Notes under the pieces: model-generated
The model's database searches: none
Told to the model about the DNA's origin: nothing
What the model saw: the letters and a program-made list of their open reading frames with translations, nothing else
Origin: Bacillus sp. FSL K6-3431
GTDB taxonomy: Bacteria; Bacillota; Bacilli; Bacillales; Bacillaceae_C
Direction of reading: 5' to 3'
Length of the DNA: 64,000 nt
Assembly: GCF_038002605.1 (NCBI RefSeq)
Contig: NZ_JBBOCT010000001.1
Span: 5,146,001 to 5,210,000 of the forward strand
Shown: piece after piece, positions 1-19,907 of the stretch
Layout of the letters: every line of letters begins with the position of its first letter
Numbering within the stretch: the first letter of the stretch is position 1
Program-made: the position numbers and the translations under genes

Positions 1-1
1 A

Positions 2-490
2 AACCAAGTTGGATTTGTAGCTGCTGGGCGTTGGTTAACCCCGATGTTTAGTGAGAACAAGGCATTAGAGTTTGATTATATTCCTTGGCCGACTAACACA
101 GGTAATAAAATAGAGCCTGCAGCAATAGCCACTGCATATATGGCTGTGAGCATTGATTCTAAGAATCCAGAAGAAGCGATGAAGTTTCTATCGTTTTATA
201 CATCTCCAGCAGGACAAAAAGCTCGTCTATCGGATAACGGAAATGCTGTACCGTCCGTAAATGGAGCAGATGAAATCATTAATGAAGCAAAAATTCCTGA
301 ACATGTAAGCTATTTACTTGATGCACGAGAAATTGGTATTGTTGATGATAAGCAAAATATAGTTCCAGGAATGGATAAAGAAATAAGTGATATATTGGAT
401 CTTATGTATCTAGGAAAACAAGATGCGGATAAAACGATAAAAGCTATTTCAGAAAAAGCTACTAAAATGATTGCGGAGTATAAAAAATAG
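2..490 (+). CDS. Carbohydrate ABC transporter substrate-binding protein, 3' part only
   Basis: The frame is open from the left edge and gives the last 162 residues of a family 1 extracellular solute-binding protein (MalE/UgpB-like), the lipoprotein that delivers a sugar to a CUT1 importer on the outer face of the membrane. The stretch with SKNPEEAMKFLSFYTSP followed by GQKARL is the usual C-terminal lobe signature of this family (residues kept together while the transporter closes), and the end is a Lys-rich helix. The N-terminus, lipobox and start lie outside the window. The next gene is a dioxygenase 160 bases downstream, so this protein probably ends an importer operon lying to the left. 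Family assignment is good; the substrate is unknown. Confidence 0.85.
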   Translation, partial: NQVGFVAAGRWLTPMFSENKALEFDYIPWPTNTGNKIEPAAIATAYMAVSIDSKNPEEAMKFLSFYTSPAGQKARLSDNGNAVPSVNGADEIINEAKIPEHVSYLLDAREIGIVDDKQNIVPGMDKEISDILDLMYLGKQDADKTIKAISEKATKMIAEYKK

Positions 491-650
491 GAGTGAATTA
501 CCAATCAGTTCTTTTCAAGCATTTTAAACTTTAATCATGAAAAAATACTTGATATCAATTTCAGACACAATAAAGTTATATGGAGACATTTCAAATCAAT
601 GTAAGCTAAGGTAAGATTTCAGTAAGAAAACAGTAGGAGGTATAAATTTT

Positions 651-1409
651 ATGAATACACCGGTAAAAGAAAATCGCATGGCACCTCTATCAGGAGAACA
701 AATAGCTCAATACGAAAAAGATGGTTTTTTGGTTGTAAAAGGCGGTTGTAGTAACGATTTAATTGATGCATATAATTCCTATATCTATACGATCCGTGCC
801 GCGGAAGAAATACAAGAATGGGCAAAACCGCATATAGGAAAAATCTTGTCTGATAAAGATCGTTTCTCACTACGTGTGTTTAATCCACATCTACACGATG
901 GATTTTCATTGCAAATGATGAAACTTCCTATTGTTCGTGGTGTTTTGGCACAAATGCTTGGAGATGAGGCAGTCGGCATCCAAAGTATGTATTTTTATAA
1001 ATCCCCCGGTTCTCCAGGTCAGGCAGCCCATCAAGATTATTATTATATTCATAACGAACCAAATACATTAACAGCAGCTTGGATTGCTATGGAAGATGTT
1101 GACGAAGAGAATGGCTGTTTGTGGGTTCTTCCAGGTAGCCATAAAGAAGGACTGCTTTCACATGGTCGTGTGAAAGATAAAAGTGAACATGAATCATGGA
1201 CAGATGAAGCAGAAGGTGCTGATTTATCCAAACAACTACCTGTTGTCATGGAAAAGGGAGATATTGTTTTCTTTCATAATTTACTCATCCATTCGTCGGG
1301 AAAAAACAGAACAGAAGATAGATGGCGTCGTTCATATGTGTGTCACTACATTCGGCATGATTCAGTAGTTGAACGAGATGACTTGAGGAAGAAAATTGTA
1401 TTGGAATAA
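651..1409 (+). CDS. Phytanoyl-CoA dioxygenase (PhyH) family Fe(II)/2-oxoglutarate oxygenase
   Basis: This is a cytosolic non-haem iron oxygenase predicted to couple 2-oxoglutarate decarboxylation to hydroxylation of a small substrate. The protein is 252 residues with the double-stranded beta-helix signature: H127-x-D129 in the motif AAHQDYYYIH, distal H214 in LLIHSSGKN, and Arg near 226 to bind 2-oxoglutarate. GCLWVLPGSHKEG (about 156-167) is the typical PhyH core. The start has a clear GTAGGAGGT ribosome site. Bacterial PhyH proteins act on very varied substrates (side chains, N-methyl groups, natural products), so no reaction is claimed. It stands before a TIM-barrel isomerase gene and is followed by a terminator. 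Two further PhyH genes occur in the window. Confidence 0.88.
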   Translation: MNTPVKENRMAPLSGEQIAQYEKDGFLVVKGGCSNDLIDAYNSYIYTIRAAEEIQEWAKPHIGKILSDKDRFSLRVFNPHLHDGFSLQMMKLPIVRGVLAQMLGDEAVGIQSMYFYKSPGSPGQAAHQDYYYIHNEPNTLTAAWIAMEDVDEENGCLWVLPGSHKEGLLSHGRVKDKSEHESWTDEAEGADLSKQLPVVMEKGDIVFFHNLLIHSSGKNRTEDRWRRSYVCHYIRHDSVVERDDLRKKIVLE

Positions 1410-1420
1410 TAATATCTAAA

Positions 1421-1455
1421 AAAGTAAGGCGGATGTTCTAGTCCGTCTTTTGTTG
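1421..1455 (+). terminator. Rho-independent terminator after the first PhyH gene
   Basis: A short stem (AGGCGGA paired with TCCGTCT, one G-U pair) closes a small loop and is followed by TTTTGTTGTT. It lies about 15 bases after the PhyH stop codon. Confidence 0.6.
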
Positions 1456-1521
1456 TTGTAAATAAATATCATAAAAGGATAAAACGGTATTATTAAATTA
1501 TTTAAATGATGGAGGGAATGT

Positions 1522-2379: not shown

Positions 2380-2628
2380 TATTAAATTTGGACTATATCT
2401 GTTACGCTTCAACCATCTACTAAAAGAAAGCTAGATTTATAGCATTGATCATCGATGTTGTGAAATGGACCCAGAGTTTCATTATATCTCCTAGTTCTTG
2501 TTGAAAAAAGTTTAAAGGAGTTTCAAACTCTTTATTGAATATAGTATATAGAAAATTAGACATTTTAAATTGTGATGTATTCTTCAATAGAATGAACAGA
2601 AATGGAAGGGTACATAGAGGAGAGGAAG

Positions 2629-3444
2629 ATGATACAAGAGATAAAGACGATGGATGATAACTCACTTTTTATTGTTGAACATGCGTATGCAGGATCTGTA
2701 GTATATCCACCTGGTGGAAAGTTGGGTTCAAGAATTCAGCAGGATCTTCAGTTGGTTATGCTTTATACCGGTTCAATGGACATTCATGTTGATGGTGTTC
2801 ACAATAAAATACCAGTAGGTCATGTAACCTTATTAAAGCCAGGTCACACTGAAAAATTTAATTTTTCAATAAAAGAGGAAACTTGGCATCGCTGGATATC
2901 TATTTCGATAAGAGGGATTAGTAAAGAGCTGCTTTCCGATATAGAAAAACTACCATCTTACATTCCGGTATCTGAGCGAATGAATGAATTGACAAGCCTT
3001 ATGTTAGCGATTAGTCGGGATCATCAAAACGATAACAACCAAGTAATCTGTTCCTTAGGACAGTCTGCCATCTTGCTATACATGATGGAATGTCAAAATC
3101 AATATCGAAGTTATATACACCCAGCAGTTTTAAAAGCGAAGGAAATGATACAAGAGAAATTTGCCGAGGATCTGAGTTTAAAAGATATATCAAAAGAAAG
3201 TAATATTAGTCCTGAACATCTCATTCGTCTTTTTCAAAAACATGTAAATATGACACCGGTTCAATACTTGTGGCTTTATCGAGTTAACTGCGGTGTGCAA
3301 CTACTCCGGAGCACCGGTTTGCAAATTGGCGAAATAGCTTTTCAAACAGGATTTAAAAGCTCGTATCACTTTTCAAGGGCTGTGAAAAAACATATAGGAA
3401 GCACACCATCAGAAATAAGGAATGAATCTCGAAAACCATCCTAG
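2629..3444 (+). CDS. AraC-family transcriptional regulator
   Basis: This is a 271-residue regulator with an N-terminal cupin-like sensor (GHVTLLKPGHTEKF typical of the beta-barrel) and a C-terminal pair of helix-turn-helix motifs in about the last 100 residues (DLSLKDISKESNISPEHLIRL, then IGEIAFQTGFKSSYHFSRAVK, ending with the GSTPSEIR signature). Such proteins bind sugars or related metabolites and usually activate nearby catabolic genes. The ATG at 2629 is chosen because AGAGGAGAGGAAG stands directly before it; an in-frame ATG at 2602 lacks a ribosome site. It probably controls the PhyH, isomerase and oxidoreductase genes around it. Confidence 0.85.
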   Translation: MIQEIKTMDDNSLFIVEHAYAGSVVYPPGGKLGSRIQQDLQLVMLYTGSMDIHVDGVHNKIPVGHVTLLKPGHTEKFNFSIKEETWHRWISISIRGISKELLSDIEKLPSYIPVSERMNELTSLMLAISRDHQNDNNQVICSLGQSAILLYMMECQNQYRSYIHPAVLKAKEMIQEKFAEDLSLKDISKESNISPEHLIRLFQKHVNMTPVQYLWLYRVNCGVQLLRSTGLQIGEIAFQTGFKSSYHFSRAVKKHIGSTPSEIRNESRKPS

Positions 3445-3720
3445 CGTTTAAATAAATTTGCAGATGTTGAAACGGAGGTTTTTGCAGGGGGATTTTAAGA
3501 ATAAACAAGTGGGAGAGTTTGGCAAAGATACGTTTAGCGTAATACAATGGATTTTTGGAAATTAGAGTTAGGAAGAAGCAAGTGTATTTGATGAAATTCA
3601 CTCAGCAATCGATTCAACACATAAAAGCAATTGTTAAAACTACTCGTAAGAGGGTAGATGTAATCGACTAATACAGAAAATTACAAACAAGTTTAACGAA
3701 AGCGTAACCATGATAAAGGG

Positions 3721-4509
3721 GTGAGAAAAATAAGATTATCATATATCCAAAGGAAAGAGCTATTTGAAAAGGGATATGTTCATATCCCAGGAGTAATTCC
3801 GCAGGCAATGTTGAACGAAGTAAGGAAAGCAATCAATCATTCCCTCGGTGAAGAGGGGATGGACAAAGAGGAACTTGCAACATTCCGTTCACAGTCGTAT
3901 TGTCCTGAACTACAATATACACCTGTAATTTCGGACCTATATCATAGAACACCCATACATGACCTTGTTGACTCTGTCATAGATACTACAAAGATTTTTC
4001 CGATAAATGGTGCTCAAATTGCTCTACGCTTTCCAAGGCTGGATGATCCTGCGCCAGAAGCAAGACCGCATATTGATGGCATGTATTCACCTAATAACGG
4101 GGTAACTGAAGGAACTATTCAAAATTTCACAGCACTAGTGGGTGTTTTATTAAGCGACTTGACAGAAGATGATGCAGGGAACTTTACCGTTTGGCCGGGA
4201 ACACATCGAACGTTCGAAAGTTATTTCAGTGAGAACGGTCCAGAAGTTTTATTAAATGGTATGCCACCAGTTGAAATGCCTGAGCCGATTCAAATAAAAG
4301 GCAAGGCTGGTGATATTGTATTCTGTCATTATCAGTTAGCACATGGAATTGGGCCTAATATTTCACCGGATATTCGATATGCAGTCTTTTTTCGAATCAA
4401 TCATGTAGAGGTAAAAAATGACTGGAAAGCCCCGATGAGTAATATTTGGATGCATTATAAAGAAAATATGCAAGTATTTGAAATAGAAGATAAAGTGACA
4501 ACTGAATAA
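3721..4509 (+). CDS. Phytanoyl-CoA dioxygenase (PhyH) family oxygenase, second copy
   Basis: This 262-residue Fe(II)/2-oxoglutarate oxygenase has the metal triad H117-x-D119 (RPHIDGMYS) and H208 (QLAHGIGPN), and the 2-oxoglutarate Arg at R219, exactly eleven residues after the distal His. FTVWPGTHRTFE is the usual PhyH core. It is clearly diverged from the protein at 651, so the two probably act on different substrates or steps. The start is weak: a GTG at 3721 directly abuts AAAGGG, leaving almost no spacing, and no better in-frame start is visible before residue 30. The gene is followed 190 bases later by a Gfo/Idh oxidoreductase. The function beyond the oxygenase class is unknown. Confidence 0.85.
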   Translation: MRKIRLSYIQRKELFEKGYVHIPGVIPQAMLNEVRKAINHSLGEEGMDKEELATFRSQSYCPELQYTPVISDLYHRTPIHDLVDSVIDTTKIFPINGAQIALRFPRLDDPAPEARPHIDGMYSPNNGVTEGTIQNFTALVGVLLSDLTEDDAGNFTVWPGTHRTFESYFSENGPEVLLNGMPPVEMPEPIQIKGKAGDIVFCHYQLAHGIGPNISPDIRYAVFFRINHVEVKNDWKAPMSNIWMHYKENMQVFEIEDKVTTE

Positions 4510-4699
4510 GAGTATGAAATATGTGTAGAATATGCACCGAATACATTAGAGGTAGCAGACATCCGGCCTTGATGGTTAAGAAGACAAAGCTTATCGGGTG
4601 AAATAGTGAATTTTAGAAAATAGGAAAAGTGTTATATTTAAAGGTTATCTATCGTATCTATATAGATGACTAAGAATCTATTATAAAGGGTGGATAAAT

Positions 4700-5686
4700 A
4701 TGGAGAAAATTCGAGTTGGAATGATTGGAACAGGTGGAATTTCTCATTGGCATGCAAGGCAGTTAATAGAACTAGATGATGCAGTTATTTGCGGAATCGC
4801 TGATCCAAGTTCGCAAAATAGAGATAAAATGGTCTCCGAATATAAATTGGATGGGGTCAGACAGTTTGCCGATTATAAGGAAATGTTGGTGGATGTTGAG
4901 CTTGATGCTGTTGTTATTTGTTCGCCACATACGCTTCATTTTCAGCAAGCAATGGATGTGTTGAATAGCGGATGTCATGTGTTGATTGAAAAGCCAATGG
5001 CCTGTTCGCAAAAGGAGGCTAAACAATTAATAGAGACATCAGAACGACTAGGAAAAGTGCTACAAGTATCCTATCAACGTCATTTTCAACCTGAATTCTT
5101 GTTTATTCGAGATGCGATTGCAAATGGTACGATTGGAAAGCTAACATCTGTAACTGCATCCCTTTATCAGGAATGGGGACAAGGAACAGCTGGTTCATGG
5201 CGCCAAAACCCTGCTCTATCCGGCGGGGGGATGTTAATGGACTCAGGCAGTCATATTATTGATGTTCTTCTTTGGACAACAGGATTATCTCCATTGGAAG
5301 TAACAACACAAATGCAACAGCACGATACTCCAGTTGAACTGGATTCCTTCACATCGATTCGCTTTGAAAATGATGTGATTGCAGGCTTGAATATTGTGGG
5401 TTATGCACCATGTTGGCATGAAACGTATGTATTCTGTGGCGATAATGGCGGAATTTTTTACGATAATGGAAAAATAACGATTCGTAGACTAAGAGAAGAA
5501 CCTATTATACCTCAACTTCCAAAGCAAACAACGAATCAAGACAAAAGTTTTATTGATGCAATCTTAGGAAAACATGAGGTTTTAGTGCCAGGGAATTTTG
5601 CGAAAGAAGTAGTCAAGCTAACAGAAATGATTTATCGGGCAGCGGGATATAGCCCATTAGAAAGTAAAGAATCAAGTTTACTATAG
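4700..5686 (+). CDS. Gfo/Idh/MocA family NAD(P)-dependent oxidoreductase
   Basis: A 328-residue cytosolic dehydrogenase. The N-terminal Rossmann fold carries the nucleotide loop GTGGIS (residues 10-15) and the family hallmark EKP (97-99, within VLIEKPMACS). The C-terminal alpha/beta domain has GGGMLMDSGSHIIDVL, whose Asp and His are the usual substrate-side residues. The family oxidises sugars, inositols and glycosides at a ring hydroxyl. The ribosome site is AAAGGGTGG. An SDR gene follows after an inverted repeat. Together with the TIM-barrel genes it fits an oxidise-then-isomerise or oxidise-then-cleave scheme, which is inference. It is one of four Gfo/Idh genes here. Confidence 0.88.
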   Translation: MEKIRVGMIGTGGISHWHARQLIELDDAVICGIADPSSQNRDKMVSEYKLDGVRQFADYKEMLVDVELDAVVICSPHTLHFQQAMDVLNSGCHVLIEKPMACSQKEAKQLIETSERLGKVLQVSYQRHFQPEFLFIRDAIANGTIGKLTSVTASLYQEWGQGTAGSWRQNPALSGGGMLMDSGSHIIDVLLWTTGLSPLEVTTQMQQHDTPVELDSFTSIRFENDVIAGLNIVGYAPCWHETYVFCGDNGGIFYDNGKITIRRLREEPIIPQLPKQTTNQDKSFIDAILGKHEVLVPGNFAKEVVKLTEMIYRAAGYSPLESKESSLL

Positions 5687-5726
5687 CAGAATAATATGGA
5701 TGATTATTAAAAAGAAATTTAAAAAT

Positions 5727-5759: not shown

Positions 5760-5812
5760 GTAAAAGTCAGTTTTAACCCCAGTCTCGATAATTGAGAGAA
5801 GGAGGGATGAAA

Positions 5813-6583
5813 ATGAGCAAACGTCTACAAGGGAAAGTTATCGTCATTACTGGTGCAACAAAAGGAATCGGAAAAGGAATTGCGCTTATTTGTGCAAAAG
5901 AAGGTGCAAAGATAGTTGTAAGTGGCAGAAATAAAGAAGCTGGTCAAAGCGTTGTCGAGGAGATAAGGCGTACTTATGGAACAGAAGTAATATTTATACA
6001 AAAGGACATTTCAAGCGAATTAGCATGTCGAGAATTAATGGAGGCATCCAATGCACATTTTGGCAGGATAGACGGACTCGTTAATAATGCAGGGATTTTT
6101 CCAAGGGGAACTATAATGGAAACATCAGAAGGCTTGTTTGATTCTATATTCGATGTGAATATAAAAGGTGCTTTTTTTTGTTCCAAATATGCTATGAAAG
6201 AAATGCTGAAAACTGGTGGAGGATCGATTGTTCAAATTGGATCCACTAATGGGTATAAAGGAGCAAAAAATTTAGTAGCTTATTCTTGTTCAAAAGGAGC
6301 AATGCTCACCTTAAATAAAAGTATTGCGGCCCATTATGCGAAAGATAAGATTAGGTCGAACTGGATTACTGTAGGATGGGTAGCGTCTGAGGGAGAAGTA
6401 GAGCTTCATGAAAGCATAGGAATGGATGAGAAAGAGCTTCATGAATGGGCGGAAAGTGTGATCCCCTCTGGAAAAATGCAGACAGCTGAGGATATGGCTT
6501 ACGGAGTTGTTTATTTGTTGTCAGATGAATCCAATCAAGTCACAGGTACAGAGCTCCAGATTAACGGGGGATTAGGATTATAG
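5813..6583 (+). CDS. Short-chain dehydrogenase/reductase (SDR)
   Basis: A 256-residue classical SDR. It has the nucleotide loop TGATKGIG (13-20), NNAG (91-94), the catalytic Ser near 144 (IGSTNG), and Y157-x-x-x-K161 (YSCSK). The Arg after the second strand (SGRN) hints at NADP(H). Classical SDRs of this type oxidise or reduce hydroxyl/keto groups of sugars and polyols. The ATG at 5813 is preferred because GGAGG lies seven bases upstream; in-frame TTG 5792 and ATG 5807 are too far from or too near that site. It follows a Gfo/Idh gene and precedes an aldo/keto reductase, giving three distinct redox enzymes in a row. Confidence 0.9.
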   Translation: MSKRLQGKVIVITGATKGIGKGIALICAKEGAKIVVSGRNKEAGQSVVEEIRRTYGTEVIFIQKDISSELACRELMEASNAHFGRIDGLVNNAGIFPRGTIMETSEGLFDSIFDVNIKGAFFCSKYAMKEMLKTGGGSIVQIGSTNGYKGAKNLVAYSCSKGAMLTLNKSIAAHYAKDKIRSNWITVGWVASEGEVELHESIGMDEKELHEWAESVIPSGKMQTAEDMAYGVVYLLSDESNQVTGTELQINGGLGL

Positions 6584-6704: not shown

Positions 6705-7532
6705 ATGCAAAAAAGATTGGAAGCTACAACTGTCTTACATAATGGTATAGAAATGCCATGGTTTGGTCTTGGAGTCTGGAAAGTAGAAAATGGCATCGAA
6801 GTAGCCAATGCGGTAAAAGTAGCATTAAATAATGGATATCGTAGTATTGATACCGCGGCGGCGTACAAAAATGAAGAAGGGGTTGGAGAAGGGATTAGAG
6901 AGTCGGGTGTTTCTCGCAAAGATATTTTTGTTACATCAAAGATTGCTAATTATGATCAAGGCTATGAGTCTACTTTACGAGCATTTGACGAGAGCTTAAA
7001 TAGACTTGGTTTAGATTATCTTGATCTTTATTTAGTTCATTGGCCGGTTCCAGGAACATATATCGATACGTGGAGAGCGCTAGAAAGGCTTTACAAAGAT
7101 GGAAAGGTTAGAGCTATTGGTGTTAGTAATTTTCATGCTCATCATCTTAATTCATTGAAGGAATCGGAAATTAAACCAATGGTTAATCAGGTAGAATTTC
7201 ATCCGTTATTATCACAAATAGAATTACGATCTTACTGTAAAGAAAATGGGATACAAATAGAATCATGGTCTCCGCTTATGCAAGGAAAAATTTTAGATAA
7301 CGAATTATTAGTTGACATTGGTAAGATCTATGAAAAAACACCTGCACAAGTTATACTTCGCTGGAATATTCAATGTGGGGTTGTAACTATTCCAAAATCA
7401 GTTAAGGAACATCGTATCATCGAAAATGCTGACATTTTTGATTTTCAATTGTCCAATGAAGACATGGAACGAATTAATGGATTAAATCAGAACCAGCGTG
7501 TTGGTGCCGATCCTGATAACAGGGATTATTAA
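6705..7532 (+). CDS. Aldo/keto reductase
   Basis: A 275-residue NADPH-dependent (alpha/beta)8-barrel reductase resembling the B. subtilis YtbE/YvgN group. The catalytic tetrad is visible as D49, Y54, K79 and H112 (in IDTAAAYKNEEG, VTSKI and LVHWP), and the cofactor-binding end contains TIPKSVKEHRIIENADIF. The family reduces aldehydes and keto groups of sugars and dicarbonyls. It has a GAGGGAGA ribosome site. Its place behind SDR and Gfo/Idh genes and before two TIM-barrel isomerases suggests a role in interconverting oxidised sugar intermediates, though many members are general detoxifying enzymes. Confidence 0.9.
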   Translation: MQKRLEATTVLHNGIEMPWFGLGVWKVENGIEVANAVKVALNNGYRSIDTAAAYKNEEGVGEGIRESGVSRKDIFVTSKIANYDQGYESTLRAFDESLNRLGLDYLDLYLVHWPVPGTYIDTWRALERLYKDGKVRAIGVSNFHAHHLNSLKESEIKPMVNQVEFHPLLSQIELRSYCKENGIQIESWSPLMQGKILDNELLVDIGKIYEKTPAQVILRWNIQCGVVTIPKSVKEHRIIENADIFDFQLSNEDMERINGLNQNQRVGADPDNRDY

Positions 7533-7677: not shown

Positions 7678-8526
7678 ATGATTAAAGGATTAAGTAATGC
7701 TGGTCTAGGAAAAGTAAGAAACGTAGAAGAACTGGTTCTACTTGCATCGAAAAATGGGTTTGGTGTTATTGATACTTCGGGGCAAGAATTAAGAGATTTT
7801 ATTGGTGAAAAAGGGTTAGAAGAAGCTAGAATGTTTTTAGAAAAACATCAAATGGAAATTGGCTCGATTGGTCTAGGTGTAGAGTGGCGACAATCAGATG
7901 CTAAGTTTCGAGAAGGACTAGCAACACTATTGGAAGATGCAAAAATAGCCGCTGAGTTTGGATGCACAAGCTGTTGTACATACGTTCTCCCTTCGACTGA
8001 TAATAATGCAGCACATTTTATGGTATTGGCAACGAAACGTCTTAAATTATGTGCGCAAATATTAAAAGAGTATGGAATTAATCTTGGACTTGAATATGTC
8101 GGTCCTCATCATTTAAGAACGGCATGGAAAAATCCATTCATTTGGGATTTACAATCGACACTGGATTGGATTGATGCTATTGGTGAGCCGAATGTAGGTT
8201 TATTACTAGATAGCTATCATTGGTATACGGCTGGTGAAACATACGAAGATTTAATCGCTCTAAAACCTTCACAAATAACACATGTTCATCTTAATGATGC
8301 AAAAGATGTACCTATTGAAGAAGTACTAGATAATGATCGTGTATATCCTGGTGAGGGTGTTATTGATTTAGCAAGCTTTTTAAAAGCATTAAATGAAATC
8401 GGTTATAAAGGACCAATTGTCCAAGAAATTCTAACAAAGGAACCATTGAACGAATCAAATGACGTATTAGCTGAAAAATCTGGGAAAGCCTTTGATATGA
8501 TATTCACTACTGCAGAAATCATTTGA
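7678..8526 (+). CDS. Sugar phosphate isomerase/epimerase-like TIM-barrel protein
   Basis: A 282-residue member of the xylose-isomerase-like TIM-barrel superfamily. Metal-ligand positions can be followed along the barrel: Glu in LGLEYVGPHH, Asp and His in LLLDSYHWYTAGE, His in HVHLNDAKD, and Glu in PIVQEILTKEP; PGEGVIDLASFLKAL is the usual segment before the last strands. AGGAGG stands ten bases before the ATG. A clear terminator follows, so this gene may close a unit with the aldo/keto reductase. The likely role is isomerisation or epimerisation of a sugar or ketosugar, and the exact reaction is unknown. Confidence 0.85.
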   Translation: MIKGLSNAGLGKVRNVEELVLLASKNGFGVIDTSGQELRDFIGEKGLEEARMFLEKHQMEIGSIGLGVEWRQSDAKFREGLATLLEDAKIAAEFGCTSCCTYVLPSTDNNAAHFMVLATKRLKLCAQILKEYGINLGLEYVGPHHLRTAWKNPFIWDLQSTLDWIDAIGEPNVGLLLDSYHWYTAGETYEDLIALKPSQITHVHLNDAKDVPIEEVLDNDRVYPGEGVIDLASFLKALNEIGYKGPIVQEILTKEPLNESNDVLAEKSGKAFDMIFTTAEII

Positions 8527-9447: not shown

Positions 9448-9545
9448 AGAATATAAAAAAATGTTTTGATCTATAATCAGGCTGTTCTGAATGAGGTTGT
9501 CAGAAATGAATAAAAGGGTAATAAGTTAATTTGTTTTGCAAATAA

Positions 9546-9559
9546 ATAAAGCGCTTTCA
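9546..9559. promoter_or_regulatory. Candidate CcpA (cre) site before importer operon 1
   Basis: The sequence ATAAAGCGCTTTCA, read on the other strand as TGAAAGCGCTTTAT, matches the cre consensus at all but the last two bases. It lies 30-45 bases before the ATG of the first permease gene, where a bound repressor could block transcription. This is a motif match only. Confidence 0.45.
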
Positions 9560-9589
9560 CAATTAAACCAAAATAGAAAGGAGAATACA

Positions 9590-11502: not shown

Positions 11503-12876
11503 ATGATCAGATTCATTATGAAAAAAAACGCCTTTTTCACACTAGTTACTATGTTGATTTTAATGATCGGACTAGTTGGTTGCAATAAATCAGAGTCAGG
11601 TGGTAATAGTTCTGGAACTTCCGATGGCGACTGGAAAGGGCAGACGCTCAAGGTACAATTGATTGGTAACTTTAGTATGGAGACAGGAACGGATCCAGTT
11701 ACTGGTGAGAAGGTACAAGGAGTAGATGTGTTAAAAAAGGAATTTGAAAAAAATTATCCAGGAGCAAAAGTTCAATTTATTATTATGCCTTGGGAAGGAT
11801 ATGTGGAGAAAACTCAAGCCATGCTAACTTCAGGTGAAGCTGACGTGTATCAAATGCCTGGTATAGCTGATTTTGCCGCGCAAGGCATTATGGAACCATT
11901 ACAACCTTTCATAGACAGTGATAGCGAGTTTGACCTCGATATCTTTATAGATAATCAAGTAGATGGCTGGAAAGCATTGGGGCCCGATGAATCGGATCTG
12001 CAAATTTTTGCACTGCCATTTCTCGGTGACGCACGGTTCATTGCCTATGATAAACTTCTATTCGATCAATGGGGTGTAGAATATTTATCAGATAATCCTA
12101 CGATGGAAGAAGTGAAGGAAAAGGCCCAAAAGATGACCGGTACTAACCCAAAAACAGGAGAAAAAAACTATGGTGTTTTCTACCGAGGGGATTGGTCTAG
12201 CGCCTTTACTCTAGTAAATACTGCTGAAGGTCAGAACGGAAATTGGGGAGAAGGCTTCGCTTGGGATGAGGTCAAGTTTAATTTTAATTCACCCGAGATG
12301 CTGAATGGACTAAATTGGTTACTTGATATGAAAGAATATGCACCAGAAGGGATAATGAGTAATCAAGGAAATGAAAAATGGTTAACGAAGGATAATAATA
12401 TCGCCATTTCATTAAATATGGGACCTGGTGATCTTGTTAAACAAACGTATGCTCAAGGATTAGAGGATCGTATTGCTATTTCTCAAGAGTTTAAAAATGA
12501 TGAAGGTAAAGGTGGATTGTTTGCTGGTAGCCCAATAGCAATAGCGAAGAATAGTAAAAATAAAGAGCTGGCGTGGGAATGGATGAAATTTGCTACAAGT
12601 GATTTCGTACAAAAGTTTATTTATGAAGAGCAAGGTCTAATGCCTGCAGTGAAGTCTGCATTTGAATGGGATAGTGTGAAAGAAGTGGATCATTTGATGA
12701 ATCCAATATTTAAAGCAATGAGCACCCCATTGACACCCAGGTATCCATGGGGATCTTCACAACCTAGATTCATATTACAATCAGAAATTGAAGCAGCCTT
12801 AACTGGTCAACGAAGTGCTCAAGATGCGTTAGATCGAGCTCAAGCAGAAAGTACTGATTGGGTAGAAAATAGATAA
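11503..12876 (+). CDS. Sugar-binding lipoprotein of ABC importer 1
   Basis: A 457-residue family 1 solute-binding protein. The N-terminus has a basic start, a hydrophobic segment and a lipobox LVGC (Cys at about residue 27), followed by a Ser/Gly-rich linker, so the mature protein is anchored by lipid to the outer membrane face. Two lobes with PWEGYVEKTQAMLTSGEADV and the NSKNKELAWEWMKFATS signature identify the family. A run AAAAGGGGG lies ten bases before the ATG. It is placed after both permeases, and the operon ends with a strong terminator. The substrate is unknown. Confidence 0.92.
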   Translation: MIRFIMKKNAFFTLVTMLILMIGLVGCNKSESGGNSSGTSDGDWKGQTLKVQLIGNFSMETGTDPVTGEKVQGVDVLKKEFEKNYPGAKVQFIIMPWEGYVEKTQAMLTSGEADVYQMPGIADFAAQGIMEPLQPFIDSDSEFDLDIFIDNQVDGWKALGPDESDLQIFALPFLGDARFIAYDKLLFDQWGVEYLSDNPTMEEVKEKAQKMTGTNPKTGEKNYGVFYRGDWSSAFTLVNTAEGQNGNWGEGFAWDEVKFNFNSPEMLNGLNWLLDMKEYAPEGIMSNQGNEKWLTKDNNIAISLNMGPGDLVKQTYAQGLEDRIAISQEFKNDEGKGGLFAGSPIAIAKNSKNKELAWEWMKFATSDFVQKFIYEEQGLMPAVKSAFEWDSVKEVDHLMNPIFKAMSTPLTPRYPWGSSQPRFILQSEIEAALTGQRSAQDALDRAQAESTDWVENR

Positions 12877-13121: not shown

Positions 13122-14018
13122 ATGGAACAGAAGGGGTGTTTTATTCAAAAAATGAGCCATACAGGATGTCATATTGATTTAGAAACAAATCAGTTACTTG
13201 CTAGTGGCAATATAAAAATGGAGTACCGAGCAGACAGAAATAAGCAACGTTGGCCTTTACATTCCCATTCAGGATACGAGATTTACTTTTTTCATGAAGG
13301 AAATGCTACCTATCTAGTTAATAACGTAATCTACCATTTAGAGCCAGGAGATATGCTGATTTTTAATGGAGAGCATATTCATAAAGTGAATCCAGATAAT
13401 GGAGTTTATATTCGAAGTTACATAAATTTTTTCTCGTACTTTGTAAAAAGTCATCTTGAAAAAGATTTATATAAAAAAGTTAAATTGCTTTTCGAGACTA
13501 ATAATGGGACATTAATTCGATGGGGTATAGAAGAACGCATGGAAATTGAAAACATAATGTCAGAAATTATTGATGAGCATAGAAAAGAAAAGGTAGGATA
13601 TCAATCTATCATTCTATCCTACCTATCGCAATTATTAATTAAAATCTATCGTAAATCGAATGGTGTCAATATTAATGTGGAGTACAACCCAAAGAATGAG
13701 CATGTCCAGAGAATATTGAAATTTATCAACGAAAACTATATGAATCAGCTCACGCTAGATCTAATTGCGGATACATTCCATTTAAACAAATATTACATGT
13801 GTCATTGTTTTAAAGAAGTGACTGGTTTTACGATAAATAAGTATTTAGCACAAAGAAGAATAGAGGAAGGAAGAAAACTGCTATTAACTACTGAACAGAC
13901 AGTTAGTTCTATATCAACACAGATTGGACTCAATAGCGCAGTACAATTTAGTAGAGTTTTCAAACAATATGAAAGTATATCTCCGCAGGTATACAGAAAA
14001 AAGTTTATGAGTCAATGA
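13122..14018 (+). CDS. AraC-family transcriptional regulator
   Basis: A 298-residue regulator with an N-terminal cupin sensor, marked by HSHSGYEIYFFHEGN and YHLEPGDMLIFNGEHIHKV (the classic histidine-rich cupin strands), and a C-terminal double helix-turn-helix (LTLDLIADTFHLNKYYM, then VSSISTQIGLNSAVQFSRVFK). It stands alone between the terminator of importer 1 and the lipoprotein gene of importer 2, so it most likely responds to a sugar and activates importer 2. GAGGT lies eight bases before the ATG. Confidence 0.88.
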   Translation: MEQKGCFIQKMSHTGCHIDLETNQLLASGNIKMEYRADRNKQRWPLHSHSGYEIYFFHEGNATYLVNNVIYHLEPGDMLIFNGEHIHKVNPDNGVYIRSYINFFSYFVKSHLEKDLYKKVKLLFETNNGTLIRWGIEERMEIENIMSEIIDEHRKEKVGYQSIILSYLSQLLIKIYRKSNGVNINVEYNPKNEHVQRILKFINENYMNQLTLDLIADTFHLNKYYMCHCFKEVTGFTINKYLAQRRIEEGRKLLLTTEQTVSSISTQIGLNSAVQFSRVFKQYESISPQVYRKKFMSQ

Positions 14019-14047
14019 TAGAAATAATAGTTGAATCTCGAGTATTT

Positions 14048-14061
14048 TGAAAGCGCTTCAA
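14048..14061. promoter_or_regulatory. Candidate CcpA (cre) site before importer operon 2
   Basis: TGAAAGCGCTTCAA agrees with the left and central part of the cre consensus and deviates near the right end. It is about 55 bases before the lipoprotein ATG. A LacI-family operator would look similar. Confidence 0.45.
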
Positions 14062-14116
14062 CGAGAGGCTGAAAAGTGCATCAGAAAGAGAAGTAAAATT
14101 ACTAGGAGGCTTTAAT

Positions 14117-15442
14117 ATGAATAAAAAGGTAAATATGTTCTTGTTCTTATTATTAATAATAGGATTAATTGCAGGATGTAGTTCACCTTCCGGAAAAAAA
14201 GAGGTTGGAACAGATGGTGTTTCTTCAGACGATAAAGTTGAATTGAGAATGACTTGGTGGGGCTCTCAGGATCGCCATGATCGCACATTAAAAGTAATAA
14301 AGTTATATGAAGAAAAAAATCCAAATGTGAAAATATCATCGGAATTTACAGGATGGGATGGTTATTGGGAAAAAATAGCTACTCAAGCTGCTGGTCAAAA
14401 TCTACCTGATATCATTCAAATGGATTATAAATTTTTATCCGATTATTCCGACAAGGGATTGTTAATAGATTTAAATGCTTATGTAGAATCTGGTGCTTTG
14501 AGCCTTGATGATGTGGATCCCCAATATTTAGACGGTGGTAAGATAGACGGCAAATTATTTGCTATTAATATTGGTGCAAACGCACACGCTGTTCTGATAG
14601 ATCCTGCAATGTTCAAAGAGGCAGAAATTCCTATTCCAGATCCTGGGTACACATGGGATGACCTTCAAGTAATAGGTAAAAAGTTATCAAATAAATTAGG
14701 TGATGGAGTGTATGGATTACATCCAAGTGCAGGCATTATGGCGTTCAAACATTATTTAAGAGAACATAATACATGGTTATTCAATGATGATGGAACTGAT
14801 CTTGGTTATGAAGATGATCAATTGTTAGTAGATTTCTTGAAGATGCAAGCAGATATGCTTAAATCTGAAGCGGCAGCACCGCCTGAAGTCTTTAAAAGTG
14901 CAGGTTCGAATATAGAGCAAATGCCGATTATTACTGGGAAAACAGCTATGCTAATGGACGTACATAGCAATCAAATAGTTGCAATGGAAGAGGCAGCGGG
15001 TCGACCGCTTCAATTAATCCTTCAACCGATGCTCGAGGGTGGGGAACTAGGACATTACATCAAACCAGGTCAATTCTTGTCAGTTTCAAGTCATTCAAAA
15101 AATGTAGAGGAAGCGGCAAAATTTATTGACTTTTTTACAAATGATATAGAGGCTAATAGACTATTGAATGCAGAGAGAGGAGTACCAATTTCAGAGAAAG
15201 TTCGCGAAGATCTAAGGGCTAACTTAACCGAGAGTGGTGAAAAGATGTTTGATTATCTCGATTTAGTTGCCGAATATGCTCGAGAAATTAATCCACCCGA
15301 TCCAATAGGTGCTACGGAAATAGAAGATTATTTTTCTACGGAAATAGAAGATCCTATTTATTATAAGAAATCGACTCCTGAAGACTTAGCAAAAGCGTTT
15401 AGGGATAAAGCAACTGAAATATTATCTAAAAATAAAAAGTGA
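14117..15442 (+). CDS. Sugar-binding lipoprotein of ABC importer 2
   Basis: A 441-residue family 1 solute-binding protein with the lipobox IAGC (Cys at residue 21) after a short basic and hydrophobic signal segment. MTWWGSQDRHDRTLKVIKLYEEKNP at the start of the mature protein and the C-terminal SKNVEEAAKFIDFFTND mark the family. TAGGAGG is the ribosome site. The gene begins the operon lipoprotein-permease-permease, the reverse order of importer 1. A hairpin separates it from the permeases, which would favour high production of the binding protein. Confidence 0.92.
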   Translation: MNKKVNMFLFLLLIIGLIAGCSSPSGKKEVGTDGVSSDDKVELRMTWWGSQDRHDRTLKVIKLYEEKNPNVKISSEFTGWDGYWEKIATQAAGQNLPDIIQMDYKFLSDYSDKGLLIDLNAYVESGALSLDDVDPQYLDGGKIDGKLFAINIGANAHAVLIDPAMFKEAEIPIPDPGYTWDDLQVIGKKLSNKLGDGVYGLHPSAGIMAFKHYLREHNTWLFNDDGTDLGYEDDQLLVDFLKMQADMLKSEAAAPPEVFKSAGSNIEQMPIITGKTAMLMDVHSNQIVAMEEAAGRPLQLILQPMLEGGELGHYIKPGQFLSVSSHSKNVEEAAKFIDFFTNDIEANRLLNAERGVPISEKVREDLRANLTESGEKMFDYLDLVAEYAREINPPDPIGATEIEDYFSTEIEDPIYYKKSTPEDLAKAFRDKATEILSKNKK

Positions 15443-15461
15443 CGTGAAGAGTATAAAATAA

Positions 15462-15489
15462 CATACCATCCATCTATATGGATGGTATG
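15462..15489 (+). promoter_or_regulatory. Intercistronic hairpin between lipoprotein and permease genes
   Basis: CATACCATCCA and TGGATGGTATG form a perfect 11-bp stem around TCTATA, directly after the lipoprotein gene and with no T-run. Such stems commonly stabilise the upstream mRNA segment or attenuate the permeases. Confidence 0.65.
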
Positions 15490-15507
15490 ACTAGCTGGAG
15501 GTGTACC

Positions 15508-16476
15508 ATGGGAAGAACTGAAGAAGTAATTGATAATAGGCTATCCAAGAAAAAAGTAAATATAACTAATCTTAAAATTGCTAAAGCGAAAAGGCAAAGG
15601 AAAACTGATATTGTAGGCTTCGCTTTCATTTCACCATGGCTAATAGGTTTTTTATGTTTTATTTTAGGTCCAATGATTGCTTCCTTATATTTGTCATTTA
15701 CTGATTATAACTTACTATCTACTCCAAATTGGATTGGAGTAGAAAATTATTCAAATATGTTTACAAATGATCCTCTATTTATAAAAGCGCTCCAAGTGAC
15801 ATTTATTTTTGTTTTTATTTCTGTCCCCATGAAACTAGCTTTTGCATTACTAGTAGCAATGCTTTTTAATAATAATCGCAAAGGCGTCAGTTTGTATAGA
15901 ACGATTTTTTATGTGCCCTCCATTTTAGGAGGTAGCGTAGCAGTTGCTGTTGTCTGGAAGCAGTTATTCAGTACAGATGGAGCTATCAATGACATACTTT
16001 CTATTTTTGGAACTGAAGGAACAAATTGGATTGCGAGTCCAGATTACGCTTTATCCACATTGATTTTATTAGTTGTATGGCAGTTTGGATCTCCAATGTT
16101 GATTTTCTTAGCGGGATTAAAAGCAATTCCAGCAGAATTATATGAATCAGCTTCAGTAGATGGTGCTAATGCATTAGTAAAATTTATTAAAATCACCATA
16201 CCGATGCTCTCGCCCGTTATTTTTTTCAACTTAGTTATGCAAACAATTCAAGGCTTTATGGCATTTACACAAAGCTTTTTAATTACCCAAGGTGGACCTT
16301 TAAATAATACTTTATTCTATGCTGTTTACTTGTACAATAAAGCATTTGGTCACTTCAATATGGGGTATGCTTCAGCTTTAGCTTGGATATTATTAATTAT
16401 TTGTGCCATATTTACAATGTTTATTTTTAAGACCGCAAAAAGTTGGGTTTACTATGAGTCTGAAGGGGGGAACTAA
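15508..16476 (+). CDS. Carbohydrate ABC transporter permease, MalF type (importer 2)
   Basis: A 322-residue CUT1 permease. A basic cytoplasmic N-terminus of about 40 residues is followed by six predicted helices starting at VGFAFISPWLIGFLCFI. The EAA-type loop reads ESASVDGANALVKFIKITIP, with the first Ala replaced by Ser. The ATG at 15508 follows GGAGG by seven bases; an ATG at 15478 lies inside the intercistronic hairpin and is rejected as the start. The partner permease begins one base after its stop codon. No ATPase gene is present in the operon. Confidence 0.92.
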   Translation: MGRTEEVIDNRLSKKKVNITNLKIAKAKRQRKTDIVGFAFISPWLIGFLCFILGPMIASLYLSFTDYNLLSTPNWIGVENYSNMFTNDPLFIKALQVTFIFVFISVPMKLAFALLVAMLFNNNRKGVSLYRTIFYVPSILGGSVAVAVVWKQLFSTDGAINDILSIFGTEGTNWIASPDYALSTLILLVVWQFGSPMLIFLAGLKAIPAELYESASVDGANALVKFIKITIPMLSPVIFFNLVMQTIQGFMAFTQSFLITQGGPLNNTLFYAVYLYNKAFGHFNMGYASALAWILLIICAIFTMFIFKTAKSWVYYESEGGN

Positions 16477-16477
16477 A

Positions 16478-17323
16478 ATGCCAATATCTAAAAAGTATAA
16501 ACCATTTATCTATCACATTAGCATTGTTATTTTAGGTTTTTTTATGATTTATCCGATCCTATGGACAATAGCAAGTTCTTTGAAACCTGAAGATGAGATT
16601 TTCCGTAACGCTTCATCATTAATCCCATCTTTTCTGAAATGGGAGAACTATATGCAAGGTTGGCAGGGATTTGGGGATATAACCTTTACCACCTTTTTCA
16701 TGAACTCAACATTTGTTACGATCATGGTGGTTATTGGAACCATATTTTCATCAACTTTAGTTGCATTTGGTTTTGCACGCGTTAACTTTCGTTTCCGTAC
16801 ACCACTTTTTATTTGTTTATTAGCAACCTTGATGTTACCTCAACAAGTAACATTAATACCTCAATATATTCTTTTTCATAAATTAGATTGGGTGAATACG
16901 TACTTACCACTTATTGTACCTGCATTTATTGGAGGTATTCCATTTTTCATCTTCTTAATGGTTCAATTTATCCGTGGAATACCGAGAGAGCTGGATGAAG
17001 CTGCTTATATTGATGGTTGTAGCACATTTGGGATTTTCTGGCGTGTTATTCTACCTTTAACAACGCCAGCAATAGCAACAGTTGCCATATTTTCGTTTTA
17101 TTGGACCTGGGATGACTTTATGGCACCGTTAATATACTTGAATGATACAAAATTATATACCGTAGCCCTAGGTTTAAAGATGTTTTCTGATCCATCATCA
17201 TTAACCGCTTGGGGACCGATGCTGGCAATGTCAGTAGTATCAATATTACCCCAACTATTGATGTTTTTATTTTTTCAGAAGTACTTAGTTGAAGGGATAA
17301 CAGCTGGAGGAGTGAAAGGGTGA
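16478..17323 (+). CDS. Carbohydrate ABC transporter permease, MalG type (importer 2)
   Basis: A 281-residue second membrane subunit with about six helices and the EAA loop DEAAYIDGCSTFGIFWRVILP. The C-terminus is VKG, as usual for MalG proteins. The ATG at 16478 is chosen because AAGGGGGG precedes it and because it lies one base after the upstream stop codon; an earlier in-frame start at 16403 would overlap the partner gene deeply. It is the last gene of importer 2, and no clear terminator follows directly. Confidence 0.92.
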   Translation: MPISKKYKPFIYHISIVILGFFMIYPILWTIASSLKPEDEIFRNASSLIPSFLKWENYMQGWQGFGDITFTTFFMNSTFVTIMVVIGTIFSSTLVAFGFARVNFRFRTPLFICLLATLMLPQQVTLIPQYILFHKLDWVNTYLPLIVPAFIGGIPFFIFLMVQFIRGIPRELDEAAYIDGCSTFGIFWRVILPLTTPAIATVAIFSFYWTWDDFMAPLIYLNDTKLYTVALGLKMFSDPSSLTAWGPMLAMSVVSILPQLLMFLFFQKYLVEGITAGGVKG

Positions 17324-17750: not shown

Positions 17751-17960
17751 ATGAAAAGATTATTCTTGATTATTAAATCTTGGCTCAATCGAGAGGGGTA
17801 TTGGTTTGAAAGCTATGCTAAAATGTTATCCTTTATTCAATCATTTCATGGAGGTAAAGTAAAATGCTTTAAAAATAAACACGTTGTATAACATCGATTT
17901 AATAGAAATTGGTATGATTCTCAGGATATCGCTAAAGAAAAAATGTTAGAGGAGAGATAA
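17751..17960 (+). pseudogene. Possible gene remnant with one in-frame stop
   Basis: From ATG 17751 the frame runs 46 codons to TAA 17889, then continues in the same frame for 22 more codons to TAA 17958, ending just before the next gene. The two parts read like protein (KSWLNREGYWFESYAK, then NRNWYDSQDIAKEK followed by MLEER). I do not recognise the family. It may be the decayed 3' end of a lost gene of this locus or chance. No ribosome site stands before the ATG. Confidence 0.3.
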
Positions 17961-17962
17961 GA

Positions 17963-18718
17963 ATGCAAGAAAAGTTTGCTGCACAATTATATACGGTTCG
18001 AGAAGAGCTTTCTAAAGGAATTGCACCTGTTTTTCAAGAATTGAAGAAAATGGGCTGGGCTGGTGTTCAAATTTCTGCTCTTCCGGCCGATCATAATCCC
18101 AAAGAAGTGGCCGATGCATTAAGGGAGACTGGACTACGTACGGCTGGAATGCACATCTCTTTAAATCGCCTTGAAAATGACCTTCAAAATGTGATGGAGG
18201 AAGCAGACCTATATGGTACGAGAGATATTATTTGTCCTTCTCTTCCTTCAGAATACAAGAATGTTGAGGGGTATCAGAAACTTAGACGAAGCTTAAATGA
18301 AATTGCAAATAAAGCTCCCAACTATCGGATTAGCTACCATAATCATGCATTTGAGTTTGAGACAGAAATTGATGGTGTGTCAGCATTGGAATATCTTTTG
18401 ACTCCATCGGAGGAGAACTTGCTTCTTGCAGAAATAGATGTGTATTGGGTAAAAAAAGGCGGACAAGATCCACTTTCATTTATTCAACCATATAAAAATA
18501 GAATGCCAATCATTCATTTAAAAGATATGTCTAATGATGATAAAGAAGTTTTTGCTGAAGTGGGAACGGGTAAGATTGATTTCATACCTATTCTACAATG
18601 GGGTGAAAAGTCAGGTGTTGAATGGTATGCAGTGGAACAGGATATTTGTCCAGGGAACCCAATGGATAGTCTGCAAATCAGCCTTGATAATCTGATGAAA
18701 CTAAAAGATCAAGTTTAA
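17963..18718 (+). CDS. Sugar phosphate isomerase/epimerase-like TIM-barrel protein
   Basis: A 251-residue protein of the branch with the motif YHNHAFEFE, which supplies the first metal-binding Glu. The other ligand positions are Asp in LAEIDVYWVKKGG, His in IIHLKDMSND and Glu in YAVEQDICP. Members of this branch are commonly paired with Gfo/Idh oxidoreductases, as here: the Gfo/Idh gene starts 25 bases downstream. In characterised pairs the dehydrogenase makes a keto sugar and the barrel protein isomerises or cleaves it; applying this here is inference. The start has GGAGAG six to eight bases upstream. Confidence 0.86.
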   Translation: MQEKFAAQLYTVREELSKGIAPVFQELKKMGWAGVQISALPADHNPKEVADALRETGLRTAGMHISLNRLENDLQNVMEEADLYGTRDIICPSLPSEYKNVEGYQKLRRSLNEIANKAPNYRISYHNHAFEFETEIDGVSALEYLLTPSEENLLLAEIDVYWVKKGGQDPLSFIQPYKNRMPIIHLKDMSNDDKEVFAEVGTGKIDFIPILQWGEKSGVEWYAVEQDICPGNPMDSLQISLDNLMKLKDQV

Positions 18719-18743
18719 TATAATTGAACTGGGGGGATTGAAT

Positions 18744-19907
18744 ATGTCCGAGCTGAGAATTGGAATTATCGGTATAGGAAACATGGGGACGAGCCATGCT
18801 AAAGCAATTTTTGATGGTAATGTAAAAGGAGCGGTATTAACCGCAATTTGTGATGAACGCCCTGATCGATTAACATGGTCAAAAGAGATGTTTGGCGATA
18901 AAGTCCAAACATTTTCTTCTATCGATGATTTTTTTGTCAACGCAAACATTGATGGAGTTATTATCGCTACGCCACATTATGATCATCCTACACTCGCTAT
19001 TAAGGCGTTTGAGAGTGACTTTCATGTGCTTTGTGAGAAGCCAGCAGGGGTGTATACGAAAAATGTTCGCCAAATGAATGAGGCTGCGGATAAAAGCGGA
19101 AAAGTATTCAGTATGATGTTTAATCAACGAACGAACCCATTATATCAAAAGGTACGAGAGTTAATCTTAGACGGTGAGCTTGGTGAGATTAAGCGAACAA
19201 ATTGGATTATTACGGATTGGTATCGCTCTCAAAGCTATTATGATTCTGGTGGTTGGCGTGCGACATGGGCAGGAGAAGGCGGCGGGGTAATGCTTAACCA
19301 ATGTCCACATCAACTAGATTTATGGCAGTGGACAACAGGTCTGATGCCAAAACGAGTAAGAGCATTTAGTGGTTTTGGTAAATATCATGATATTGAAGTG
19401 GAAGACGATGTGACAGCATATGTAGAATATGAGAACGGAGCAACTGGACTATTTGTAACATCTACAGGTGAAGCACCAGGTACGAATCGTTTTGAAGTGA
19501 CAGGAGACTGTGGGAAGCTTGTTGTAGAAAATAATCAACTAACATTTTGGAGACTAAGACAGTCTGAACGTGAATTCAATCGAGAATTCCGAGGTGGTTT
19601 TGGTCAGCCTGAGTGTTGGAAAATTGATATTCCTGTACGTGGTAAATCGACTGGTCATTTAGGGATATTGAATAATTGGGTAGATGCCATTCTGAACGGG
19701 GCTGAATTACTTGCACCAGGCCAAGAAGGAATCAAGGGTTTAGCAATTACAAATGCCGTTTATTTATCGAGCTGGATGGATAACTGGGTGGATATGCCTA
19801 TTGATGAAGATCTTTACTATGCTAAATTGCAGGAAAAAATGAAGGAATCTAGCTATGAAAAGCCTACTAAAGAGGACCTAACGTTGAATGTAAGTGGGAC
19901 ACATTGA
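18744..19907 (+). CDS. Gfo/Idh/MocA family oxidoreductase
   Basis: A 387-residue dehydrogenase, longer than the other three in the window. The Rossmann loop is GIGNMG (10-15) and the EKP hallmark is at 98-100 (VLCEKPAGV). The C-terminal domain has GGGVMLNQCPHQLDLWQW, in which the His before LDLW is the usual catalytic position. ATG 18744 is preferred to the in-frame TTG 18738 because GGGGGG lies seven bases before it. It is paired with the TIM-barrel gene directly upstream and ends the first catabolic region. It probably oxidises a ring hydroxyl of an imported sugar or glycoside. Confidence 0.88.
   Translation: MSELRIGIIGIGNMGTSHAKAIFDGNVKGAVLTAICDERPDRLTWSKEMFGDKVQTFSSIDDFFVNANIDGVIIATPHYDHPTLAIKAFESDFHVLCEKPAGVYTKNVRQMNEAADKSGKVFSMMFNQRTNPLYQKVRELILDGELGEIKRTNWIITDWYRSQSYYDSGGWRATWAGEGGGVMLNQCPHQLDLWQWTTGLMPKRVRAFSGFGKYHDIEVEDDVTAYVEYENGATGLFVTSTGEAPGTNRFEVTGDCGKLVVENNQLTFWRLRQSEREFNREFRGGFGQPECWKIDIPVRGKSTGHLGILNNWVDAILNGAELLAPGQEGIKGLAITNAVYLSSWMDNWVDMPIDEDLYYAKLQEKMKESSYEKPTKEDLTLNVSGTH

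Follow-up and report, generated by a model that had tools for sequence, protein, structure and literature searches.

What would a bacterium do with two Fe/2-oxoglutarate oxygenases, four TIM-barrel proteins and two sugar importers packed into 20 kb? The question is raised by positions 1-19907 of a 64,000-nucleotide stretch of DNA from Bacillus sp. FSL K6-3431 (the window; bases 5146001-5210000 of a 5.49-Mb contig). An earlier note on this DNA listed two oxygenases of the PhyH family, four TIM-barrels, two Gfo/Idh dehydrogenases, a short-chain dehydrogenase/reductase (SDR), an aldo/keto reductase (AKR), two importers and two AraC regulators. All of these domain classes are recovered with Pfam at curated cut-offs among the 19 open reading frames (ORFs) of at least 150 aa in positions 1-19907 (18 complete, one cut), the weakest call being the TIM-barrel TIM1; the genes of this region described below all lie on the forward strand. 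We propose, with about even confidence, that this region forms the right half of an accessory island for sugar catabolism, in which modified glycosides would be oxidised, opened by elimination and drained through a galactonate branch.

The evidence that carries this proposal comes from the right end of the region, where TIM4 (17963-18718) and Gfo2 (18738-19907) adjoin. The best PDB match of Gfo2 is 8tdi, whose function is taken here from its deposited name, 'P2B11 Glucuronide-3-dehydrogenase' (318.7 bits over residues 3-370; next match 121.4 bits). Gfo2 is thus a probable glycoside (glucuronide) 3-dehydrogenase, a relative of a 3-dehydrogenase placed beside an eliminase-type protein, from a family that is very common (at least 7994 candidates, all at E <= 0.001). 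TIM4 has as its best PDB match 8bvk (80.7 bits), which is AtOGE, a 3-keto-O-glycoside β-eliminase (PMC10628242). In AtOGE, Mn is coordinated by His132, Asp163, His189 and, weakly, Glu233, and His134 is required, while an alternative metal position with Glu39 as a ligand was set aside by the authors (PMC10628242). TIM4 is 31% identical to AtOGE over 215 aligned positions (AtOGE residues 10-236) and retains H132, H134, D163, H189 and E233, that is, all five residues of the productive site. Because of the 8tdi match and the retention of these residues, the pair is read as an oxidation-elimination module, with TIM4 as a probable Mn-dependent 3-keto-glycoside β-eliminase of the AtOGE type. The suggestion of the earlier note that 17963-19907 oxidises and then cleaves its substrate is in this way well supported by homology, and elimination by TIM4 is indicated more firmly than the substrate on which it would act.

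The arrangement is analogous to the Agrobacterium tumefaciens GlycDH/AtOGE/AtHYD/Gfo operon, in which a dehydrogenase also adjoins the eliminase and whose productive Mn ligands and catalytic His recur in TIM4; it differs in the 31% identity of TIM4 and in the extra TIM-barrels, oxygenases and galactonate branch of the island (PMC10628242). The Dgp/Car C-glycoside systems, to which the earlier note had pointed, share the principle of a Gfo/Idh protein working with a TIM-barrel, and DgpA is the best PDB match of Gfo1 (98.9 bits, residues 1-194 only). Unlike those systems, TIM4 matches AtOGE, which is called sequence-unrelated to the C-glycoside eliminases (PMC10628242). Further TIM-barrels with the AtOGE motif YHNH are encoded in the own genome outside the island (G000:C1:2903515-2903796, L155, and 3083537-3083923, L152).

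The window edge cuts the island. Once the 19 kb to the left of the window (L005) is joined to the window part, the island measures ~38 kb. The left part reads, in order, LacI, Gfo/Idh, an ATP-binding cassette (ABC) importer consisting of a binding protein and two permeases (identified by reading the ORFs), a TIM-barrel (uTIM), a Gfo protein similar to levoglucosan dehydrogenase (uLgdA), galactonate dehydratase, a DUF6157 gene, a PfkB kinase, a TIM-barrel, AraC, two PhyH, AraC and a binding protein that crosses into the window. The left half adds two PhyH, two TIM-barrels, two Gfo/Idh and a third importer, which brings the island to four PhyH. The DgoD-type dehydratase and the PfkB kinase are found ~7-10 kb to the left of where the window begins; the dehydratase scores 706.3 bits against a cut-off of 311 (NCBIfam NF010624). 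The statement of the earlier note that glycoside hydrolase, kinase and aldolase are all missing holds for the 19 ORFs of 1-19907 (shorter ORFs being outside the scan). It fails for the island, as the kinase seemed to be missing because the edge cuts the island, and kinase and dehydratase stand just to the left. The uTIM/uLgdA pair recalls the Bacillus smithii LgdA-B1-B2-C cluster, in which a Gfo/Idh protein and TIM-barrels annotated as sugar isomerases have ABC and LacI genes nearby, and uLgdA is related to levoglucosan dehydrogenase. The levoglucosan pathway proceeds by oxidation, elimination, hydration and reduction, and the gene cluster described for it has no PhyH, galactonate dehydratase or kinase such as those of this island (PMC7676230).

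In the pathway that we propose, the ABC importers would bring in modified glycosides or sugar derivatives, Gfo2 would oxidise the sugar at C3 with NAD+, and TIM4 would then eliminate the C1 substituent by means of a Mn-bound carbonyl and the catalytic His. Keto-sugar intermediates would be epimerised, isomerised and reduced by TIM2, TIM3, Gfo1, SDR and AKR. The PhyH enzymes would hydroxylate next to O or N at modified positions, so that a substituent is shed or a carbonyl is left, and TIM1 would act on the PhyH product. The freed sugar or sugar acid would be drained as galactonate by the left-end dehydratase and a kinase of the 2-keto-3-deoxygluconate (KDG) type, with an aldolase supplied from elsewhere in the genome, where two genes of the aldolase family PF01081 are present. 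Domains, gene sets and active-site residues are assigned by homology, and from these sequence comparisons we infer which reactions take place, in what order and on which substrate. The basis is close or active-site homology for Gfo2, TIM4 and the dehydratase, and family chemistry and gene pairing for PhyH and TIM1.

Comparison with other genomes shows how far these genes belong together. Most of the window set recurs in Lederbergia citrea at 73-92% identity and in nearly the same order, with AraC1 and TIM1 swapped, two other ORFs at the place of PhyH2, and no AKR found. In the congener G008, Gfo1-AKR-TIM2-TIM3-importer A-TIM4-Gfo2 is contiguous at 75-94% identity, and AraC2 and importer B are not found between importer A and TIM4. 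Since most of the set recurs in L. citrea and the stretch from Gfo1 to Gfo2 recurs in G008, the gene set was not assembled by chance. The contiguous G008 set also makes TIM4-Gfo2 part of the Gfo1 set, so that AraC2 with importer B (13122-17323), as well as the SDR, seem to have been gained in the window or lost in G008. The G008 set is followed directly by counterparts of a zinc alcohol dehydrogenase, a name given by eye, and of the LacI-Gfo-importer-uTIM genes; it is preceded by the counterpart of a transporter gene found farther to the left in the own genome. Gfo1 is found at E <= 1e-100 in 16 of the 60 genomes searched, namely the own genome, 14 of 15 congeners and 1 of 44 others, and relatives of PhyH1 at 83-91% identity occur in five congeners. 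The accessory catabolic locus of the earlier note is in this way supported by homology.

The galactonate branch travels with these genes. In L. citrea, where the counterpart lies ~8 kb after sdhA/sdhB relatives with DUF993 and DUF2264 genes further on, the branch comprises a dehydratase (708.2 bits), a 2-keto-3-deoxy-6-phosphogluconate (KDPG) aldolase (198.4 bits; eda cut-off 156.05) and a kinase (201.3 bits; cut-off 400). The kinase is followed by LacI, an AtOGE-like TIM-barrel and importer genes and then by the PhyH set, TIM1, Gfo1, SDR, TIM2, TIM3 and importer A; from the dehydratase to importer A, these genes, the aldolase included, lie within ~20 kb. PhyH2 is found in 5 of the 60 genomes, the own one and four congeners (G004, G007, G009 and G014). 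All four congeners have the order ROK kinase-PhyH2-DgoD-aldolase, with PhyH2 0.1-1.1 kb upstream of the galactonate dehydratase on the same strand; the 1.1-kb gap between the two in L094 holds no ORF of 100 aa. In G004 the aldolase adjoining DgoD scores 203.3 bits (eda cut-off 156.05), and PhyH1 appears to share an operon with a GH78-type gene, Gfo, TIM-barrels, a kinase, a lactonase, Gfo1 and TIM2. Shuffled yet kept together, the parts of the island suggest a catabolic theme with the galactonate branch as its end point.

Several findings weigh against the proposed pathway. At the alternative metal position TIM4 retains H66 and E161 and has Gln in place of AtOGE Glu39, as does its G008 counterpart, while Glu39 is present in the OGE-like proteins of L092 and L. 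citrea. The true inosose dehydratase IolE of the own genome also carries H-x-H on strand 5 (HHH), so TIM4 may alternatively be a dehydratase or hydratase. The PfkB kinase has KDG/KDGal kinase as its best family at 199.8 bits, below the cut-off of 400 (NF040938), and no aldolase lies within the own island. The G004 operon with PhyH1 and Gfo1 includes the GH78-type gene (PF17389, 102 bits). Finally, uLgdA scores 423.4 bits with levoglucosan dehydrogenase against a cut-off of 650 (NF052479); the levoglucosan pathway assignment was dropped on this score, and Gfo2 and Gfo1 fall still lower, at 75.8 and 78.1 bits. The GH78-type gene is a single 788-aa ORF in G004 (L126:890-3256) and, by eye, two ORFs in G007 (L123:16816-18246 and 18361-19179).

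These findings bear on the strongest rival, an ordinary non-phosphorylating aldonate pathway of the De Ley-Doudoroff type for a galactose-type sugar, with a dehydrogenase, lactonase, galactonate dehydratase, KDG kinase and KDPG aldolase. Normal hydrolases would open the glycosides, the TIM-barrels would be epimerases and PhyH would trim side groups. It draws on DgoD above cut-off, on the presence of a kinase, on an aldolase above the eda cut-off beside DgoD in G004 and in L. citrea (an aldolase occurs in L. citrea and in the four congeners), on the conserved PhyH2-DgoD order, and on the lactonase and GH78-type gene of G004. A GH43 gene (L012:7101-8069) that precedes an AraC-PhyH-TIM1 trio in Metabacillus halosaccharovorans fits it as well. 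The own island, however, departs from a complete De Ley-Doudoroff branch in its missing aldolase and in a kinase below cut-off. For Gfo2 and TIM4, a 3-dehydrogenase and a 3-keto eliminase are better matches than any named 1-dehydrogenase or epimerase. The scanned ORFs of the own island include no hydrolase, and PF17389 has no match in the own genome, where other hydrolase families were not searched. We regard this pathway as unlikely, though far from negligible. Parts of the earlier description do not hold as worded: the absence of an aldolase is true of the own island and not of its L. citrea counterpart, and a hydrolase-free route describes the island locally, not the system as a whole, given the GH78-type gene in the G004 operon.

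What, then, would the oxygenases contribute to the proposed pathway? PhyH1 (651-1409; Pfam PhyH 137.5 bits) and the more divergent PhyH2 (3721-4509; 41.9 bits), for which no PDB relative was found, share with the other two island PhyH the residues H117, D119, H208 and R219, invariant in 17 of 17 aligned rows. We take H117, D119 and H208 to be the HxD...H triad and R219 the Arg for 2-oxoglutarate. PhyH genes abound in relatives of Paenibacillus and Bacillus, where they are not known to have a carbon-catabolic role. The earlier note had suggested that the dioxygenases take off a methyl or alkyl group, a candidate role that the present comparisons, which included no search for genes of formaldehyde handling, neither support nor contradict. 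On an oxygen-dependent reading of low probability, set out below, PhyH2 might even oxidise the anomeric C-H and so deliver a lactone to the galactonate dehydratase.

Directly after PhyH1 stands TIM1 (1522-2379), an AP_endonuc_2 protein only just above its Pfam cut-off (31.5 against 31.1 bits). No credible solved relative of TIM1 was found in the PDB by single sequence or by profile; the sole profile match (E 0.0026), to 73 positions of an amylase, was set aside. The motif of TIM1 is known from one predicted model together with alignments. The model has eight strands in TIM-barrel order (mean predicted local distance difference test score 91.2). E126, D154, H185 and E236 sit where strands 5 to 8 end, and E126-x-H128, D154, H185 and E236 are invariant in 40 of 40 homologues. 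The C-glycoside eliminases carry Glu in place of AtOGE His132 (PMC10628242), a pattern that E126-x-H128 matches in a protein with no credible sequence relative in the PDB. TIM1 is proposed to be eliminase-like.

The neighbours of TIM1 were compared in the best 80 of 142 loci confirmed by a TIM1 profile, in stretches of up to 21 kb and with PhyH counted in six frames; E-T-H is present in 79 of the 80 proteins. PhyH lies within 1.5 kb of TIM1 in 37 loci, on the same strand in all 37, and only six PhyH matches lie farther off. Within 3 kb on the same strand, 35 loci have PhyH only, 11 Gfo only, two both and 32 neither (Fisher p 0.017, with related loci treated as independent). A second TIM-barrel accompanies 9 of the 13 Gfo loci versus 1 of the 37 PhyH loci. 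On the tree of the 80 proteins the PhyH-only label (35 rows) requires at least 14 changes, and supported branches force eight of these; the pairing has thus been gained or lost repeatedly. One reading of this pattern is that TIM1 is supplied with an oxidised substrate by PhyH in some loci and by Gfo in others; against it stand the 32 loci with neither partner and the D-x-x-H of epimerase-type barrels that TIM1 also has.

TIM1 and PhyH could then form an oxygen-dependent counterpart of the Gfo/eliminase pair, in which PhyH would make a carbonyl irreversibly (or strip an amine or ether to leave one) and TIM1 would eliminate, opening a glycoside or modified sugar with neither hydrolase nor NAD+; we hold this to be doubtful, at a low probability. 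Somewhat different is a rival account of the locus in which PhyH takes the place of the NAD-dependent dehydrogenase. It would hydroxylate a carbon bearing OH or OR at its C-H bond, yielding a ketone or releasing an amine or ether, after which TIM1 would eliminate across the carbonyl so formed. The close PhyH pairing, the segregation from Gfo and second barrels, its repeated changes on the tree and the invariant strand 5-8 residues all speak for it. Many 2-oxoglutarate oxygenases only hydroxylate, however, and the loci without either partner, the D-x-x-H and the missing solved relative of TIM1 argue in the other direction; we consider it quite improbable. A precedent for the first step is KanJ of kanamycin biosynthesis, presumably a PhyH family member. 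KanJ, a 2-oxoglutarate-iron oxygenase, turns an amino sugar into a 2'-keto sugar for the reductase KanK; unlike the route considered here, that pair is biosynthetic, and the passages on it name no TIM-barrel (PMC5533434). Among the literature matches listed, none reports PhyH with a sugar isomerase or in Paenibacillus with sugar, none gives a sugar case of O-demethylation of methylated sugars by 2-oxoglutarate oxygenases, and none describes the combination with four oxygenases and a recurrent PhyH-TIM1 pair.

A wider search covered 398 genomes of the class, the own one included, and gave PhyH2 in 4 (E <= 1e-60) and TIM1 in 3 (E <= 1e-40); it is unusable as a co-occurrence test because matches are few. 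The contexts of distant PhyH2 relatives (L138-L141) are short and mixed, two of them without anything telling by eye. In L140 the relative adjoins a TIM-barrel resembling, by eye, the IolO-like one of G004, and in L139 it lies near a sulfatase-like gene (144.5 of 481 bits). A gene of the EgtB/SenA/formylglycine-enzyme kind (all scores below cut-off, the formylglycine name by eye) also stands near these two (L139:1269-4148), and a second one, likewise below cut-off, lies near the G004 Gfo1 operon (L126:19184-19999). From these genes a sulfated sugar is a possible substrate.

The remaining enzymes of the window part would serve the middle of the proposed pathway. Gfo1 (4700-5686; a dehydrogenase or ketoreductase), the SDR (5792-6583), the AKR (6705-7532; DkgA-like, NCBIfam 304.7 bits, below the cut-off of 425) and the further TIM-barrels include candidates for a hydratase or ketoreductase partner of the eliminase, none of them assignable. 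TIM2 (7678-8526) has 3u0h and IolI as relatives, and TIM3 (8668-9447) has TM0416, psicose epimerase and 3-keto-glucoside 4-epimerase; both, like TIM4, are AP_endonuc_2 proteins. The barrels fall into two sorts by their strand-5 motif, which is E-x-H or H-x-H in TIM1 (ETH), TIM4 (HNH), uTIM (EPH) and IolE (HHH), and E-x-[VL] in TIM2 (EYV), TIM3 and the second left TIM-barrel (both EPL). This split is a reading of our own alignment and not a published rule, with motifs taken by eye and the TIM4 motif not aligned exactly with that of AtOGE by MAFFT. The E-x-[VL] of TIM2 and TIM3 fits their isomerase and epimerase relatives, from which isomerase/epimerase-type activity would be predicted for TIM2 and epimerase-type activity for TIM3.

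Another account sees in the locus a catabolic route for a cyclitol that is O-methylated or glycosylated (pinitol or galactinol-like compounds), with the Gfo/Idh proteins as inositol dehydrogenases, the TIM-barrels as IolE/IolI/IolO-like enzymes, PhyH as O-demethylase and the galactonate branch at hand for a galactose half. IolG, IolE, IolI and IolO do recur as weak relatives. The window proteins nevertheless score far below the NCBIfam cut-offs for IolG, IolE and IolO, and the left-side proteins scanned are below them too; 8tdi is a much closer match of Gfo2 than any inositol dehydrogenase, and a true IolE (425.5 bits against a cut-off of 290) is encoded elsewhere in the genome. We rate this account the least probable of those considered. 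The inositol assignment was dropped on the Iol scores and the location of IolE. An IolE-related TIM-barrel match at window 43504-43770 lies outside the locus and is one of 16 such matches in the genome.

Transport and regulation complete the region. The C-terminal part of an ABC sugar-binding protein (SBP_bac_1) occupies 2-490, the whole gene being L005:18180-19490, and no permease adjoins it. Of its two relatives elsewhere in the genome, one at 74% identity (L096) has permease-like matches adjoining; for the other, at 65% (L097), no adjoining permease was found. AraC1 lies at 2602-3444 and AraC2, which has a cupin domain, at 13122-14018. Importer A consists of permeases at 9536-10522 and 10539-11396 with a binding protein at 11503-12876, and importer B (14117-17323) of a binding protein at 14117-15442 with permeases at 15478-16476 and 16403-17323. 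No ABC ATP-binding subunit is found among the 19 ORFs, the only place where one was looked for. On the right, a chemoreceptor at 20545-22584 (dCache 37.6 of 45 bits, below cut-off) adjoins the island and may be a candidate sensor of its substrate.

The chemistry of Gfo/Idh proteins with TIM-barrels is already known; what is new here is the TIM1 family, which is without solved relatives, has an eliminase-like site and has PhyH or Gfo proteins as neighbours. A recurrent PhyH partner beside a recognisable eliminase-like site may reflect a little-known handling of modified sugars. If the oxygen-dependent reading of PhyH and TIM1 is true, an O2-driven route would join the hydrolase-independent glycoside pathways.

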